Below, in pieces: positions 15,838 through 21,671 of a DNA stretch of 64,000 nt. Positions within the stretch are counted from its first letter, which is position 1, and every line of letters starts with the position of its first letter. The stretch is from Sulfurovum sp. NBC37-1 (GTDB taxonomy: Bacteria > Campylobacterota > Campylobacteria > Campylobacterales > Sulfurovaceae), in NCBI RefSeq assembly GCF_000010345.1, contig NC_009663.1, forward strand, positions 1,426,001 through 1,490,000, given 5' to 3'. The position numbers and the translations under genes were made by a program. Below the pieces are notes generated by a model that saw only the letters and a program-made list of their open reading frames with translations, had not been told where the DNA came from and made no database searches.

Positions 15838-16530
15838 ATGAAATCCACTTCACTAACCCTATTGACACTCTTTACAGCATTTTTAATAGCCGGCTGCAAT
15901 GCGGATACAACTTCCGCAACAGAAGAATCACCAACAGCATCCCCGAGTGATACGCTTACTGAAGACCAGAAATATTCTCTGGCCTATATGTGGCATGAAG
16001 AGAAACTTGCCAAGGAGCTTTATCTTGAACTCAATAAAATAAACCCTGCCCAACAGTTGGAAAATATTGCACTGAACTCTGAAGTAAAACATATTGCAAA
16101 AGTGCAGGAAGTCGTAGCTTACTACGATATCAACATCACCAATCTTGCCGATTATGAGATCGAGTATTCAAAGGATGAGCTTGAAAATATGCCTGTAGGG
16201 TTTTTTGCCGTTCCGGAAATTCAGGATCTTTACAATATGCTCTATAACAAAGGGTTGGCATCGAAACAGTCAGCACTAGAAGTAGACTGCATGGTCGAAG
16301 TGGTTGACATCAATGACCTTGACAAGTTCCTGGTTACCGCAGACAATAACCAGTATCTCATTGATGCGTTCACCTTTTTGCATGACGGCAGCTATACGCA
16401 CTACTGGGCATTTGATAAAGGTTTGAAAAATATGGGTGTAACAGACGGGTGCTGCTCACTTGGTACTGACTACTGTCATCCGGAATATCCGCAAAATGAA
16501 AACGGCGGTGCAGGAAAAGGAAAACAGTAG
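15838..16530 (+). CDS. DUF2202 (ferritin-like) lipoprotein
   Basis: This 230-residue protein has a lipobox signal (LIAGCN, Cys19), so it should be anchored in a membrane facing the periplasm. The domain begins with LAYMWHEEKLAKELYLEL, typical of DUF2202, whose predicted fold is ferritin-like with Glu/His metal ligands. A Cys-rich end, GCCSLGTDYCHPEYP, precedes a glycine-lysine tail. It follows the cytochrome gene after 62 bp with its own AGGAG. Function is unproven in the family; iron binding or redox stress is a reasonable guess. Confidence 0.82.
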   Translation: MKSTSLTLLTLFTAFLIAGCNADTTSATEESPTASPSDTLTEDQKYSLAYMWHEEKLAKELYLELNKINPAQQLENIALNSEVKHIAKVQEVVAYYDINITNLADYEIEYSKDELENMPVGFFAVPEIQDLYNMLYNKGLASKQSALEVDCMVEVVDINDLDKFLVTADNNQYLIDAFTFLHDGSYTHYWAFDKGLKNMGVTDGCCSLGTDYCHPEYPQNENGGAGKGKQ

Positions 16531-16704
16531 TATTCAGGAGCCGATATCCGTTTTCGCTTCAGGAAACATTTCCATCATAGCACTGATAACCTGGGATAAT
16601 AAATACTTTGGAAAAATAAAACGTCTGAGATTTCCACATCCTCCAAGGATGACAGAGATGGTTTTGAATGAGTCTCCAAGTATGCTCTGAATATTTTCAA
16701 AAGT

Positions 16705-16829
16705 ATGGTCAATATCCTGTCACACAGCGGTAGCATCGCCTCATCGTGTGTAACCATAATGACCGCGACATTCTGATCTGTGGCGATCTTCTTGAGCATC
16801 TTGACGACATTGATCGGATTAAAATTTAG
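16705..16829 (-). pseudogene. Remnant of an ABC exporter ATPase gene
   Basis: Read leftward this encodes NVVKMLKKIATDQNVAVIMV, then THDEAMLPLCDRIL, which closely matches the end of the intact ATPase at 20958-21671. DNA identity is clearly below 100 percent by eye, so it is a diverged paralogue rather than a fresh duplication. Both ends are lost: the upstream side stops at the hybrid kinase stop codon and the downstream side runs into unrelated sequence. The surrounding 16531-16832 holds nothing else I can call. Confidence 0.75.
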
Positions 16830-16832
16830 CAG

Positions 16833-18770
16833 TTAATCTGTAAGAATTTCCCTGATACGACTGATTTCAATAGGTTTTGTGAGTATGCTATCAGCACCAG
16901 CTTCTATCATTTCTGCATGTACTTCACTCTCTGAGTCACCGGTCAAGCCATAAATAGTAACATCTTTGCCTTTAGGTAATTTACGAATCTCTTTAATGCT
17001 CTCTATGCCATCAAGCACAGGCATGTTCTTATCTATAAAAATAATATCGATATCATTGTTTTTAAACATCTCTATACCTTCTTTGCCATTCCTGGCGCTA
17101 AAAGATATCGCCCCCAAGCGTCTACTGACTTCTTCCATAAGCTTGAGATTAATGACACTGTCATCCACCAGTAGAACATGCTTTTTACTCATCTTCTTTT
17201 CTTCAAAAGGTTCGGGAGCCTTCTGTATGTTATCTATGGAGGTAAAGAGCTTTTCTGGAAAAATTGGCATATTCAAAATAGTCAAATCATCAGGAATGAG
17301 ACTGCTGTCTTCAAACATTTCTACTTGAAATAGAATAAATGATCTCTTGTATTTTTGCATGAGCGATAGTTCATTTTTATTGTTAAAGTCGAAACTGATA
17401 CCTAAGAATAGACTATTGTTTGTATTGATTTTACGTTTAACGAGTGCATCTGCTGTTATGACTTCGTAAGGTATATTCAACGTATCAAAATACCTGCTAT
17501 AGTTTTTGCTATAACGATGCTTGTTCTTGGAGCCTTCGACCATATACAGATATGGAATCTTCTCGGGGTCTAGTTCAATGCACTTTGGCGTACCGGGGAT
17601 AGAGTTGCAAGGAATCGTTAGCGTGAACGTTGTTCCTTCTCCCTCTTTGCTATCAAAGTGTAATTCTCCTTCCAGTAAGTCTGCCAATTTTTTGGAGATG
17701 CTCAGTCCCAATCCCGTACCGCCATATTTTCCTGCTATACTCTTGGAAGCCTGTTGAAAAGGATGGAAAATACTTTTTTGCGCCTCTTCCGGAATACCGA
17801 TTCCTGTATCTTTAACATTGACAATCAGCTCATCTGTATCTAGCTCATAGAGCATTTCTAAAGTGACCATACCTCCCTCAGGAGTAAACTTAATAGCATT
17901 ACTTATTAGATTATTAATAATTTGTTTGAGACGAATCGGGCCAGATTTAATCAGATATGGTATATTGGGATCTACATAAATAATAAAGTCTATACGTTTA
18001 CTCAAGGCATTATGATAAAAAAGCAGAGCTGTATTCTCAAGCTCTTTGACCGGAGAGAAATAATATAGGTCAATCTTAAGTTTTCCAGAACTGATTTTAT
18101 TGAAATCAAGAACATCATTAATAAGTGCTATAACCATTTCTGCACTCTTGTGTGCCGATTGAACATACTCCACCTGCTTTGGGTCCACCTCTTCTTTCAA
18201 TAGGTCAAGAAAGCCCAATACAGCATTCATAGGTGTCCTGATATCATGAATAACAGATGAAAAAAACTCGCTTTTACGGTCAGGATAAAGATCAAACTCT
18301 TGAAGTTTTATAGCATTATTTTTAATCGTATCTAAAATTTTTTTATCATTTTTAGTAAAATCTTCTATAAAATCCAATGCTTTTTCAATCTCTTCTTTTG
18401 TAAAAAATGTCTTTTTGTTAGACTTTTTTTGTTTAAAAATGGAGATTAAGCCGCTTATCCTATGCTTCCCCCTGTAAGTAATGGGAAGCAGTGCACACGA
18501 ATCATCTGGATGCCTAAAAGGATTATCAATTTTTGGATTGTAGAGAAAATCATCTTCCAAATGGTTAACAATAAAAGGTTTTTCTGTTCCCAAACATAAC
18601 TTTGAAATGCTATCTTCTTTCAAGGAAACAGAGATCTTCTTATAGGAGGCAGGATCAATAACCAGAAGACCGGAAGTATCTTTCTCAAGACATGATATAC
18701 ATATACGATCAGTTGGAAAAATCTGTTTAATTAGTTTGTATAATGTATCTATAAAAAATTTATTTTCCAT
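16833..18770 (-). CDS. Hybrid histidine kinase (GAF-HisKA-HATPase-REC)
   Basis: This soluble 645-residue protein has a GAF-like sensor (about 5-140, with CISCLEK and SCALLPITYRGK) and a HisKA domain with His175 in SSVIHDIRTPMNAVLGFLD. The ATPase domain follows (NNLISNAIKFTPEGG, DTGIGIPEEA, GGTGLGLSISKKLADLLEG). A degenerate receiver-like region near 420-510 precedes a C-terminal receiver (about 525-645) with VLLVDDS, FIDKNMPVLDG and ILTKPIE. It is the last gene of a unit with the Roadblock-like proteins. No output domain is attached, so phosphate probably passes to another protein or controls the cluster partners. Confidence 0.9.
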   Translation of the reverse strand: MENKFFIDTLYKLIKQIFPTDRICISCLEKDTSGLLVIDPASYKKISVSLKEDSISKLCLGTEKPFIVNHLEDDFLYNPKIDNPFRHPDDSCALLPITYRGKHRISGLISIFKQKKSNKKTFFTKEEIEKALDFIEDFTKNDKKILDTIKNNAIKLQEFDLYPDRKSEFFSSVIHDIRTPMNAVLGFLDLLKEEVDPKQVEYVQSAHKSAEMVIALINDVLDFNKISSGKLKIDLYYFSPVKELENTALLFYHNALSKRIDFIIYVDPNIPYLIKSGPIRLKQIINNLISNAIKFTPEGGMVTLEMLYELDTDELIVNVKDTGIGIPEEAQKSIFHPFQQASKSIAGKYGGTGLGLSISKKLADLLEGELHFDSKEGEGTTFTLTIPCNSIPGTPKCIELDPEKIPYLYMVEGSKNKHRYSKNYSRYFDTLNIPYEVITADALVKRKINTNNSLFLGISFDFNNKNELSLMQKYKRSFILFQVEMFEDSSLIPDDLTILNMPIFPEKLFTSIDNIQKAPEPFEEKKMSKKHVLLVDDSVINLKLMEEVSRRLGAISFSARNGKEGIEMFKNNDIDIIFIDKNMPVLDGIESIKEIRKLPKGKDVTIYGLTGDSESEVHAEMIEAGADSILTKPIEISRIREILTD

Positions 18771-18795
18771 TAAGTCTTAACTTTTTCCATTTTCA

Positions 18796-19485
18796 TTAGT
18801 AGAATTTTTTAATAAGTTTTTTTTGAAAAGGTTCCAACTCTTTATGACAGATACCAAGTGATCTGTTTTCTGTCATAACTACCAGGATGGCATCTTCATA
18901 TAAAGGATAAAAAAAACTGTAACCTTCTGGCCTTGATACAATGATATTATTAGGTTGACCAATTAGACTATCGACTCTGTTGCGATTAGATTCAATACTT
19001 TCATAAATAGAAAAAATATACTTATGTATCTCTTCCGGAATACCATCTATTCCGTAAGCATTGATTTTTGATCCCTGGATAAGAAAGGCAAATGCTGCAC
19101 ATGCTGGAAAAGTTTTTTGACAAAACTCTTTCCACTCCTCATCCATTGGATTTGCTAAGGTACCTTGATCCATTTTTATCGGTGCATCCATCTCTTTCGT
19201 TGTATTCTCATCATTATGAGAAGTGTCTTCAGAAAGAATTTCTTCCGGATGCTCTTGATTTTTGTTTAAAGCACCGAAAAGCTTTCCAAGCATTTTCTTG
19301 TGCAAAAATGATAGTTTCATATCAATATCCTTCGAGTTAATAGGTTCTGAAAGAGTGTTTAAAACCCTGCATAATTTTCCGTTCTCAGTATAAATAACAT
19401 TATAAATGGATTGACGATTAGAATAATACATGGTTTTTATATTAAAAACCTTATTGTTTATCTCTACTCTATCTTCCAACTCCAT
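18796..19485 (-). CDS. Uncharacterised protein, possible Roadblock/LC7-like C-terminal domain
   Basis: The 229-residue product is soluble. Residues 1-45 (DRVEINNKVFNIKTMYYSNRQ...) form a beta-rich segment, 75-115 an acidic, low-complexity linker (EDTSHNDENTTKEMD), and 130-229 an alpha/beta domain with CAAFAFLIQGSKINAYGIDG and ending NRSLGICHKELEPFQKKLI. The C-terminal domain has the length and strand-helix pattern of a Roadblock/LC7 module, though the match is weak. It lies 25 bp upstream of the hybrid kinase gene and 3 bp downstream of the next gene, so it is part of the same operon. Confidence 0.55.
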   Translation of the reverse strand: MELEDRVEINNKVFNIKTMYYSNRQSIYNVIYTENGKLCRVLNTLSEPINSKDIDMKLSFLHKKMLGKLFGALNKNQEHPEEILSEDTSHNDENTTKEMDAPIKMDQGTLANPMDEEWKEFCQKTFPACAAFAFLIQGSKINAYGIDGIPEEIHKYIFSIYESIESNRNRVDSLIGQPNNIIVSRPEGYSFFYPLYEDAILVVMTENRSLGICHKELEPFQKKLIKKFY

Positions 19486-19488
19486 TGC

Positions 19489-19860
19489 TTATCCTTCCAT
19501 AATTTTCATTAAAGCAAAAATCCTTCCAAGCCCAACCTCCTTATTGCTGGTTAGCATAAAAATAATGCCGTCTGAGCGTTTCTGAATAAAGATACGCTCA
19601 TCAAAATCACCCATGAGCATACTAAGATCTTCTTTGAAAAGTGGAGCTACTTTTTTTAAAACTTTAAAACTCTTTTTCATATTGTGCCGGTCGTCTAGTA
19701 TCTTATATACTTTTTTTTTATTTTTAGGATCAAAAAGATAGATAGAATAGACTCCGGTAATTGATTTGAACTGTTCATAATATTTTTGCAACAGTTCTGC
19801 CACCTCTTCCATCTCGCCTGATTTAGTCATTTTTTGTTTCCTTGCGATAAATTTATGCAT
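19489..19860 (-). CDS. Small Roadblock/LC7-like protein
   Basis: The product has 123 residues: a helix (EMEEVAELLQKYYEQF) then a strand-rich core, VYSIYLFDPKNKKKVYKIL, ending DGIIFMLTSNKEVGLGRIFALMKIM. The GIIFMLTSNKEVGLGRIFALM segment resembles the last strand and helix of Roadblock folds. The helix before the first strand fits MglB-type dimers. It is the middle gene of the set, 3 bp from the next. The family call is structural inference from pattern. Confidence 0.5.
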   Translation of the reverse strand: MHKFIARKQKMTKSGEMEEVAELLQKYYEQFKSITGVYSIYLFDPKNKKKVYKILDDRHNMKKSFKVLKKVAPLFKEDLSMLMGDFDERIFIQKRSDGIIFMLTSNKEVGLGRIFALMKIMEG

Positions 19861-19964
19861 ATTATATATTTTCTCCTGCTATATCGGTCTCATTATTTTA
19901 GACAAAAATCACCGCTTAGCTAGACAAAAAACAGTAAATTAACATCAAATAATCTTTACCTATA

Positions 19965-20034
19965 ACATCATAAAGAAAATATTTTATGATGTCCTATAGT
20001 TCAAATCTTTTAGTAGTAAAGATCTGAACTATAG
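19965..20034. repeat. Two tandem hairpins inside the Roadblock/kinase cluster
   Basis: A perfect 10-bp stem ACATCATAAA/TTTATGATGT (19965-19974, 19983-19992) is followed by a 17-bp stem starting CTATAGTTCA (19994-20010, 20018-20034) with one mismatch and a 7-base loop. They fill the 221-bp gap between the 67-residue gene and the 123-residue gene. They may act as a partial terminator or processing site setting different transcript levels. No T tract directly follows on either strand. Confidence 0.7.
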
Positions 20035-20045
20035 CCACACATAGG

Positions 20046-20079
20046 TTTTCTCCGTTACCCATCAGGGCCACGGAGAAAA
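20046..20079 (-). terminator. Hairpin after the 67-residue gene
   Basis: The arms TTTTCTCCGT (20046-20055) and ACGGAGAAAA (20070-20079) pair perfectly around a 14-base loop. It starts three bases past the stop of the leftward gene at 20082. No run of T follows, so a Rho-independent role is uncertain. Confidence 0.5.
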
Positions 20080-20081
20080 AT

Positions 20082-20285
20082 TTAGTTTTTGCTCATGTTT
20101 TTAATCAAACCATTTACAAAACCAAGTAGATGCGGAGTAACTCCCTGCAAGTCTTCATTGGTTACATCAAGATTAGCAAGGACAGCCATAAGTTTTTTGT
20201 AAAACTCTTTGGGTTCTACTGCACCACTTTTCATTTCGTCGATTGCTTGAGCTAGTTGGTCTTTTGCCATTTGTAAATCTCCCAT
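20082..20285 (-). CDS. Small helical protein of the Roadblock cluster
   Basis: The 67-residue product is predicted all-helical and lacks Cys, Trp or a signal peptide. Its sequence runs MAKDQLAQAIDEMKSGAVEP, then EFYKKLMAVLANLD, then GVTPHLLGFVNGLIKNMSKN. The AGGGAGAATAGGTAA leader gives a good ribosome site. Being the second gene after the canonical Roadblock protein, it may be a partner or adaptor for the LC7-type dimers. I recognise no family. Confidence 0.7.
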   Translation of the reverse strand: MGDLQMAKDQLAQAIDEMKSGAVEPKEFYKKLMAVLANLDVTNEDLQGVTPHLLGFVNGLIKNMSKN

Positions 20286-20399
20286 TTACCTATTCTCCCT
20301 TATTTATTTTTTTAATTATATACAAAGAAAACATAAAAATAACCTTTCAGAGGAAGCAAATCATCCTCCTTCAGGCGAGCTTGTAAATCATCTGTCTAA

Positions 20400-20777
20400 T
20401 TAAACGGCTTGAAGTTCTTTAAGAAAGACTTTCAATGCAACGATGAGACCGCCCATTTTGAATCCAGCTGGTGCAATAACACCCAATGCCACTTCTTCTC
20501 CAAGGTCTTTAACGGCGATAGCTCCGCCATCAGCATTAATAATCATTTCACTCAACGTTCCCGACTCTGTATTGCTCAGAACACTGCTTGTTGAAGCCAG
20601 CAAGGATGCGATATCCGCTGAGATAATATCAGAATCTTTGTCTGATTTGAAATAATGTGCCATTTCAAGACCCTCTGCTGTAGCAAGAAGCGCTCCATCA
20701 AGACCATTCTTCTTGACAAACGTCTCCAGTAATTTGTCACCCTTGCTTGTCAATGTGCTAATATCTAGACTACTCAT
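20400..20777 (-). CDS. Roadblock/LC7 (MglB-like) domain protein
   Basis: The 125-residue product is a single Roadblock/LC7 domain: FVKKNGLDGALLATAEGLEMAHYF is the characteristic first strand-turn-strand, followed by a long helix (ISADIASLLASTSSVLSNTE) and IINADGGAIAVKDLGEEVALGVIAP. Bacterial members such as MglB act as dimeric GAPs or scaffolds for small Ras-like GTPases that control polarity or motility. No such GTPase is encoded in this cluster. It is the first gene leftward, with AGGAG before the ATG, and its 5' region (20778-20957) is A+T-rich and carries the promoter. Confidence 0.85.
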   Translation of the reverse strand: MSSLDISTLTSKGDKLLETFVKKNGLDGALLATAEGLEMAHYFKSDKDSDIISADIASLLASTSSVLSNTESGTLSEMIINADGGAIAVKDLGEEVALGVIAPAGFKMGGLIVALKVFLKELQAV

Positions 20778-20957: not shown

Positions 20958-21671
20958 CTACAATATCACTGCACTTTCAGGTACCTCTTCGGACACCACT
21001 TTTTTGTCCTCTATCTTCAGTATCCTGTCACACAACGGCAGCATCGCTTCATCGTGCGTGACCATAATGACGGCTACATCCTGCTCGACGGCGATTTTCT
21101 TGAGCATTTTTACAACATCGACGGAGCGTTTAGAGTCCAGCGCCGCGGTAGGTTCGTCTGCCAGGATGATCTGGGGCGTGTTGGCGAGCGCACGGGCGAT
21201 AGCCACACGCTGGTTCTGTCCACCGGAGAGCTGGGAGGGCATTGCTTTGGCCTTGTCAGCAATGTCGAAATACTCCAGCAGATCCATGGCTTTCTCGTTC
21301 GCCTCTTTTTCAGATACACCATTGGTCTGCGGAATGAGCGTAACGTTCTCTATGACATTAAGGAAGGGGATGAGATAGTGCGCCTGAAAGATGAATCCGA
21401 TCTTCTCACGGCGTATTTTTCTGGTCTCTTTGGTAAGCCACTTGTTGTCGTACACCTTTTCATTACCCAGCCAGACGGTACCGCTCGTAGGCTCTTCCAC
21501 ACAGCCTATCATCATTAGAAGCGTAGTCTTCCCTGCACCACTCGGTGCGACCAGCGCGACCAGCTCACCTTTGTCCACCTGAAAAGAGGCTCCCTCTATG
21601 ACCCGGACCAGACTGTCGCCCTTACCGAAATGTTTGACAATATTTTCAACTTTGATTGCCTGTTTTTCCAT
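20958..21671 (-). CDS. ABC exporter ATPase (LolD/MacB/DevA-like)
   Basis: This 237-residue cytoplasmic ATPase has Walker A (APSGAGKTTLL, about 39-49), signature LSGGQNQRVAIARAL, Walker B IILADEPTAAL and the switch His in VTHDEAML. It powers the FtsX-type permease encoded just upstream (4-bp gap). Full operon order is TolC-like, membrane fusion protein, permease, ATPase, a complete tripartite exporter. The substrate is unknown; DevBCA systems export glycolipids and MacAB systems export toxins or siderophores. A diverged remnant of a similar ATPase lies at 16705-16829. Confidence 0.92.
   Translation of the reverse strand: MEKQAIKVENIVKHFGKGDSLVRVIEGASFQVDKGELVALVAPSGAGKTTLLMMIGCVEEPTSGTVWLGNEKVYDNKWLTKETRKIRREKIGFIFQAHYLIPFLNVIENVTLIPQTNGVSEKEANEKAMDLLEYFDIADKAKAMPSQLSGGQNQRVAIARALANTPQIILADEPTAALDSKRSVDVVKMLKKIAVEQDVAVIMVTHDEAMLPLCDRILKIEDKKVVSEEVPESAVIL

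Follow-up and report, generated by a model that had tools for sequence, protein, structure and literature searches.

What do Roadblock/LC7 proteins do when they are encoded beside a hybrid histidine kinase and apart from any Ras-like GTPase gene? The question is raised by a cassette of Sulfurovum sp. NBC37-1, found in the 64,000-nucleotide stretch of the genome analyzed here (the window). All five predicted open reading frames, including that of a 67-residue protein, were confirmed on the minus strand where the original prediction had placed them, in the order LC7, p67, p123, p229, and HK, and a Shine-Dalgarno-like sequence precedes most of them. The cassette and its borders are laid out as follows:

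20958..21671, minus strand: ABC-transporter ATPase gene (PF00005, E = 1.6e-33), the upstream border, outside the module
20400..20777, minus strand: LC7, Roadblock/LC7 protein of 125 aa (PF03259), slow-evolving
20082..20285, minus strand: p67, 67 aa, probably all-helical as judged from sequence, slow-evolving
19861..20081, minus strand: p67-p123 spacer with three consecutive stem-loops
19489..19860, minus strand: p123, 123 aa, second Roadblock-fold protein, fast-evolving
18796..19485, minus strand: p229, 229 aa, with an N-terminal domain, a linker, and a C-terminal Roadblock domain, fast-evolving
19300..19302, minus strand: codon of p229 H62, a histidine that is almost invariant and lies in the N-terminal domain helix
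16833..18770, minus strand: HK, soluble hybrid kinase of 645 aa
16704..16813, minus strand: decayed fragment from within the ABC ATPase gene, the downstream border of the cassette

None of the five proteins contains a long hydrophobic segment, so all are probably cytosolic. Adjoining the cassette on the opposite strand (15838-16530) is a gene whose product belongs to DUF2202 (PF09968) and bears a putative lipoprotein signal.

Three Proteins with a Roadblock Fold

How many of these proteins belong to the Roadblock superfamily? The 2.56-Mb single-contig genome holds exactly one match to PF03259, and it is LC7 (E = 3.9e-12; 46.2 bits against a Pfam cut-off of 23), which had been called a clear Roadblock/LC7 protein from its sequence. 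For p123 and p229, a Pfam search gives no convincing match, and PF03259 does not match p123. We compared family alignments built from relatives using hhalign, taking as background the maximum of 60 column-shuffled comparisons. Against the LC7 profile, p123 scores 30.0 (shuffled maximum 16.5), and the C-terminal part of p229 scores 20.7 (shuffled maximum 14.8); the latter reaches 26.8 against the p123 profile (shuffled maximum 16.8). Profile scores of p67 and of the p229 N-terminal domain, both tried as additional Roadblock domains, fell inside the shuffled range.

AlphaFold2 predicts the element order α-β-β-α-β-β-β-α for p123 (pLDDT 75), whose best Foldseek matches in the PDB are Roadblock proteins (VIA Z up to 12.3). 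The p229 model, built with three sequences and of modest confidence (overall pLDDT 60), consists of a β4-α N-terminal domain (residues 1-75), a linker, and a domain (residues 113-229) with the Roadblock element order, less confidently predicted than in p123. Foldseek matches p229 to Roadblock structures (E = 3.5e-4, TMt about 0.65), with VIA Z of 10-13 for residues 105-229. Among the best PDB matches of p123 and p229 are LAMTOR subunits, MglB, MglC, CvnB5, and Asgard Roadblocks, joined for p229 by the Roadblock domains at the C termini of Rag/Gtr proteins. By predicted structure combined with profile comparison, p123 and the C-terminal domain of p229 are Roadblock folds; because both lines of evidence place them there, we count three Roadblock proteins in the cassette. 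Thus the original prediction that two further proteins are Roadblock-like, for which Pfam alone was insufficient, passed the profile and structure tests, and the outcome named as its refutation, that only the 125-residue protein is LC7, did not materialize by profile or by fold.

These results also bear on the plainest account of the locus, in which an ordinary two-component operon sits beside unrelated small genes and the 125-aa protein is the sole Roadblock member. Pfam on its own backs a single Roadblock protein, but the profile and fold tests contradict this, as does the conserved co-occurrence of the genes across differing contexts described below; on the present data, such an account is hardly credible.

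Distribution and Origin of the Cassette

Is the gene order a peculiarity of one genome? PF03259 was found in 10 of 398 genomes of the order, in single copy each. Of the 150 family genomes, 14 carry the cassette or its LC7. About a dozen genomes of Campylobacterales share the five-gene order, and the co-occurrence that the original prediction staked itself on was borne out when gene order was compared. The full order LC7-p67-p123-p229-HK is present in the window and at loci L006, L007, L011, L022, L023, L024, L070, L072, and L074, while L010, L025, and L073 start in the same way and are cut by a contig end or frameshifted. The flanking housekeeping genes differ among loci (TatC, a GroEL-type chaperonin, TonB/aminotransferase, a Na/H exchanger, or rpsO). 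Strong matches to p67 and to p229 are confined to cassette genomes, and no clear p229 was found outside them. At the level of sequence, this establishes that three Roadblock-fold proteins are co-inherited with a small conserved protein and with a kinase that retains all catalytic residues.

Variants also occur. In a second family of the order (L012, L026, and L027), p123 is absent from two genomes, p67 is doubled in two, and the kinase is on the opposite strand in two; L026 has no linked kinase. The L075:5032-11224 variant carries two nearly identical LC7 genes and encodes a GAF protein separately; p123 and p229 are replaced by one protein of 560 aa that matched no family. A scan of 84,980 species genomes, which detects close relatives only, returned four loci, so the cassette may occur in other phyla as well.

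How did the cassette reach this genome? Its GC content is 35%, compared with 44% for the window and 51% for the upstream ABC ATPase gene. Across the cassette, positions 16704-16813 are 82% identical to positions 21012-21121 inside that gene, and this repeated ABC ATPase fragment is a trace of cassette insertion. Given the low GC content, the flanking ABC gene and fragment, the sporadic presence, and the differing contexts, the cassette was probably acquired horizontally. No plasmid yielded a relative of LC7, and no viral contig a relative of LC7 or p67. PADLOC, searched for defense systems, shows no match except a weak ATPase match of HK.

Two Halves with Different Evolutionary Rates

The five genes fall into distinct rate classes. 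Mean pairwise identity is 58% for LC7 (over 18 relatives) and 61% for p67, as against 37% for HK, 25% for p123, and 22% for p229. Pairwise distances are correlated between LC7 and p67 (r = 0.86) and between p123 and p229 (r = 0.94), values that come from few loci, some of them closely related, and that are lower by Spearman (0.57 for p123-p229). All five genes are under purifying selection, as dN/dS is below 0.45 in three closely related pairs; in the distant comparison of the window with L006, p123 and p229 give 0.34-0.56. With the order recurring in other genomes and dN/dS low, sequence comparison excludes a chance layout.

A structured spacer separates the two halves. In the window, the p67-p123 spacer forms stem-loops at about 20046-20079, 19994-20034, and 19965-19992 (dG -73.2, z -8.2), and over 14 loci its mean z is -4.4 vs. 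-0.65 for the LC7-p67 spacer. Such stem-loops occur at almost every locus, conserved in position and not shared in sequence. No intrinsic terminator pattern was found in the spacer of the window, and the stem-loops may serve in RNA processing or in protein binding. Together, the two rate classes and the structured spacer between them suggest that the cassette is expressed as two units, LC7-p67 forming the conserved half and p123, p229, and the kinase the variable one.

Within the conserved half, p67 adjoins LC7 in every cassette not interrupted by a contig end, and its residues K19, F28, L36, L46, G48, N58, and N63 are invariant. Searches against solved structures gave only chance-like matches to LRR, DARPin, and Sin3 proteins. 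We considered p67 as an HPt protein and rejected the idea for want of a conserved histidine: H52 of the window protein is Q, M, Y, or another residue in most relatives.

The Hybrid Kinase and a Candidate Phospho-Acceptor

HK comprises a GAF-like domain, HisKA (H175), HATPase_c, a variable region, and REC (D580). HisKA, HATPase_c, and REC score far over their Pfam cut-offs, and H175, N287, N291, D536, D537, D580, and K632 are invariant in all nine aligned members (9/9). With its HisKA histidine, ATP-binding motifs, and REC aspartate and lysine, HK is by its sequence motifs a hybrid histidine kinase. The original prediction of a soluble GAF-HisKA-REC kinase therefore holds for HisKA, REC, and solubility, whereas the N-terminal GAF assignment stays below the Pfam cut-off (16.9 vs. 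22.4 bits). In the L075 variant, the separate cassette protein (211 aa) matches GAF_2 (E = 6e-6). Kinases of this type are not exclusive to the cassette, since similar stand-alone hybrid kinases occur without it (L077:1763-3757 and L078:7231-9333).

Which residue might receive a phosphoryl group from HK? Hybrid kinases usually require a histidine acceptor after REC, and the cassette encodes no HPt. Although mean identity in p229 is 22%, 13 of the 14 sequences aligned have H62, as does the frameshifted L073 copy, which marks this residue as a candidate phospho-acceptor. A full four-step phosphorelay would run from H175 to D580 to p229 H62, with the N-terminal domain as a nonstandard phosphotransfer domain and the Roadblock parts as a dimerization base. 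Such a relay would supply the missing acceptor, and H62 is helical and one of very few near-invariant p229 residues; however, the domain is predicted, with low confidence, as β4-α and not as a four-helix bundle, L026 has a tyrosine at this position, and a conserved histidine may be structural. We consider the relay improbable. An apparent link between loss of H62 and loss of the kinase in L026 was weakened by an unlinked kinase of HK type in that genome.

Is a Small GTPase the Missing Partner?

The usual targets of Roadblock proteins are small GTPases (PMC4316618). Neither in the window nor in the cassettes of its relatives does a Ras-like GTPase gene adjoin the cassette. When the whole genome was searched with the Roc profile, in answer to the proposal to look for an MglA-like gene elsewhere, one stand-alone GTPase was found, a 158-aa Ras-like protein at 849 kb, 0.6 Mb from the cassette. 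The original observation that no MglA-like GTPase is encoded here holds for the neighborhood and is qualified by this Ras-like GTPase elsewhere in the genome. The operon of this GTPase (L050:6929-11121) also encodes coiled-coil, OmpA, and GGDEF proteins, the layout of Rup group 1 of Wuichet and Sogaard-Andersen (PMC4316618). The OmpA protein looked partly Roadblock-like by eye, which a profile of two sequences only did not confirm.

Could the cassette, in the manner of a conservon, regulate an unlinked Ras-like GTPase (here that of Rup), with LC7 as a kinase-controlled GAP or exchange platform? Besides the typical targets of Roadblock proteins and the Rup operon in the window genome, co-occurrence above expectation speaks for it: in the family sample, Rup is present in 8/14 cassette genomes vs. 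21/136 others (Fisher P = 0.001, uncorrected for shared ancestry), and in the genus subset in 5/5 vs. 4/18 (P = 0.004, likewise ignoring shared ancestry). Against it, the Rup of the window genome was unmatched in eight other cassette genomes, of which one is rated 100% and two 99% complete, and Rup operons have conserved partners of their own (PMC4316618). Roc-profile matches in those eight are mostly long frames typical of translation or tRNA GTPases, in a frame reading that left out a 663-aa (G055) and a 162-aa (G639) frame; an MglA of unusual sequence could have been missed by the profile. Because several cassette genomes, one rated 100% complete, lack a match, the Rup GTPase appears from these searches not to be obligatory for the cassette, and we judge such regulation of an unlinked GTPase unlikely, though far from negligible.

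How does the cassette compare with known Roadblock systems? In layout it resembles the conservons (CvnA-D; actinobacterial G protein systems), operons that combine a histidine kinase with a Roadblock protein of the MglB type and another small protein, and in some cases with a GAF accessory protein, CvnF (PMC13343842). The LC7 profile matches CvnB5 (3leq; E = 2.4e-6), and here, too, Roadblock and histidine kinase genes share one operon. The conservon kinase, however, is membrane-bound, whereas HK is a soluble hybrid with REC; the conservon has one Roadblock protein, and the cassette, in a different phylum, has three. Neither the window nor its relatives have a linked CvnD, and because this GTPase defines conservons, we do not class the cassette as one. 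There is precedent for an operon with Roadblock and kinase genes but no GTPase gene, since some actinobacterial conservons have lost theirs (PMC4316618). What sets the cassette apart is that it has three Roadblock proteins, p67, and a hybrid kinase that is soluble.

The MglA/MglB polarity module of Myxococcus and Thermus, with MglC and RomR, likewise ties Roadblock/LC7 proteins to response-regulator signaling, but in the cassette the kinase sits in the operon and no MglA-type GTPase is coupled within four genes. The Rup group 1 operon of the same genome also links to signaling output modules (PMC4316618), yet it lies apart from the cassette, has coiled-coil, OmpA, and GGDEF proteins as partners of its own, and lacks a PF03259 protein. 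Eukaryotic Ragulator/EGO similarly unites several different Roadblock proteins and a helical partner in one assembly, and in fold p123 and the C-terminal domain of p229 match the Roadblock domains of LAMTOR and Rag/Gtr proteins; there is no Rag-type GTPase here, and the likeness is one of fold only, with no sign of descent or equal function.

Proposed Mechanism and Implications

What, then, might the cassette do? Our preferred reading, to which we give an even chance, is a horizontally acquired, self-contained cytosolic cassette in which a heteromeric Roadblock/LC7 assembly reads out a GAF hybrid kinase without a dedicated linked GTPase or DNA-binding regulator. A ligand of the GAF domain would set the phosphorylation of the kinase. 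The p123 and p229 proteins would make up a Roadblock pair matched to the kinase of their own cassette, and this would account for their fast, in-step change; they would bind the kinase and relay its state, shifting conformation or assembly upon phosphorylation of D580 or p229 H62. The conserved half, LC7 and p67, would provide the output, probably as an LC7 dimer with p67 as its cap, and would bind a conserved target in the cell; the stem-loops after p67 would allow this half to be made in an amount different from that of the kinase half. A role for the LC7 proteins as scaffold or output of the kinase, as first proposed, is plausible. We hold more tentatively, as possible but doubtful, the specific form in which a heteromeric Roadblock platform is the two-component output without a small GTPase and p229 is a phospho-acceptor fused to a Roadblock domain.

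A partner may have been missed, as Roadblock proteins elsewhere mostly regulate NTPases. The cassette's Roadblock proteins could regulate another NTPase, an ATPase or motor common to these bacteria, with the kinase as the switch. The superfamily is described as NTPase regulators (Koonin and Aravind, as cited in PMC4316618), and LC7 and p67 are conserved as though fitted to a conserved partner, but the kinase is the only linked NTPase and a candidate was not found. We think such a target rather improbable.

Returning to the cassette itself, such an arrangement in Campylobacterota is undescribed in the open literature searched, in keeping with its prediction as a previously undescribed module, although accounts elsewhere are possible. 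A 2014 survey counted 328 MglB homologs uncoupled to a GTPase, none studied experimentally (PMC4316618). The cassette is compact: its kinase provides a defined input, its three Roadblock proteins all differ, and its hosts have small genomes, in some of which searches detected no Ras-like GTPase; the role of Roadblock proteins without a small GTPase thereby becomes directly testable. It bears as well on the origin of heteromeric Roadblock platforms, such as Ragulator, from simpler signaling units. If the more tentative form without any small GTPase and with p229 as phospho-acceptor is true, this would be a prokaryotic Roadblock signaling module independent of G proteins. A cassette inherited as a block in scattered Sulfurovum-type bacteria, without a Ras-like switch of its own, suggests that the ancient Roadblock scaffold fold can couple directly to bacterial two-component signaling.
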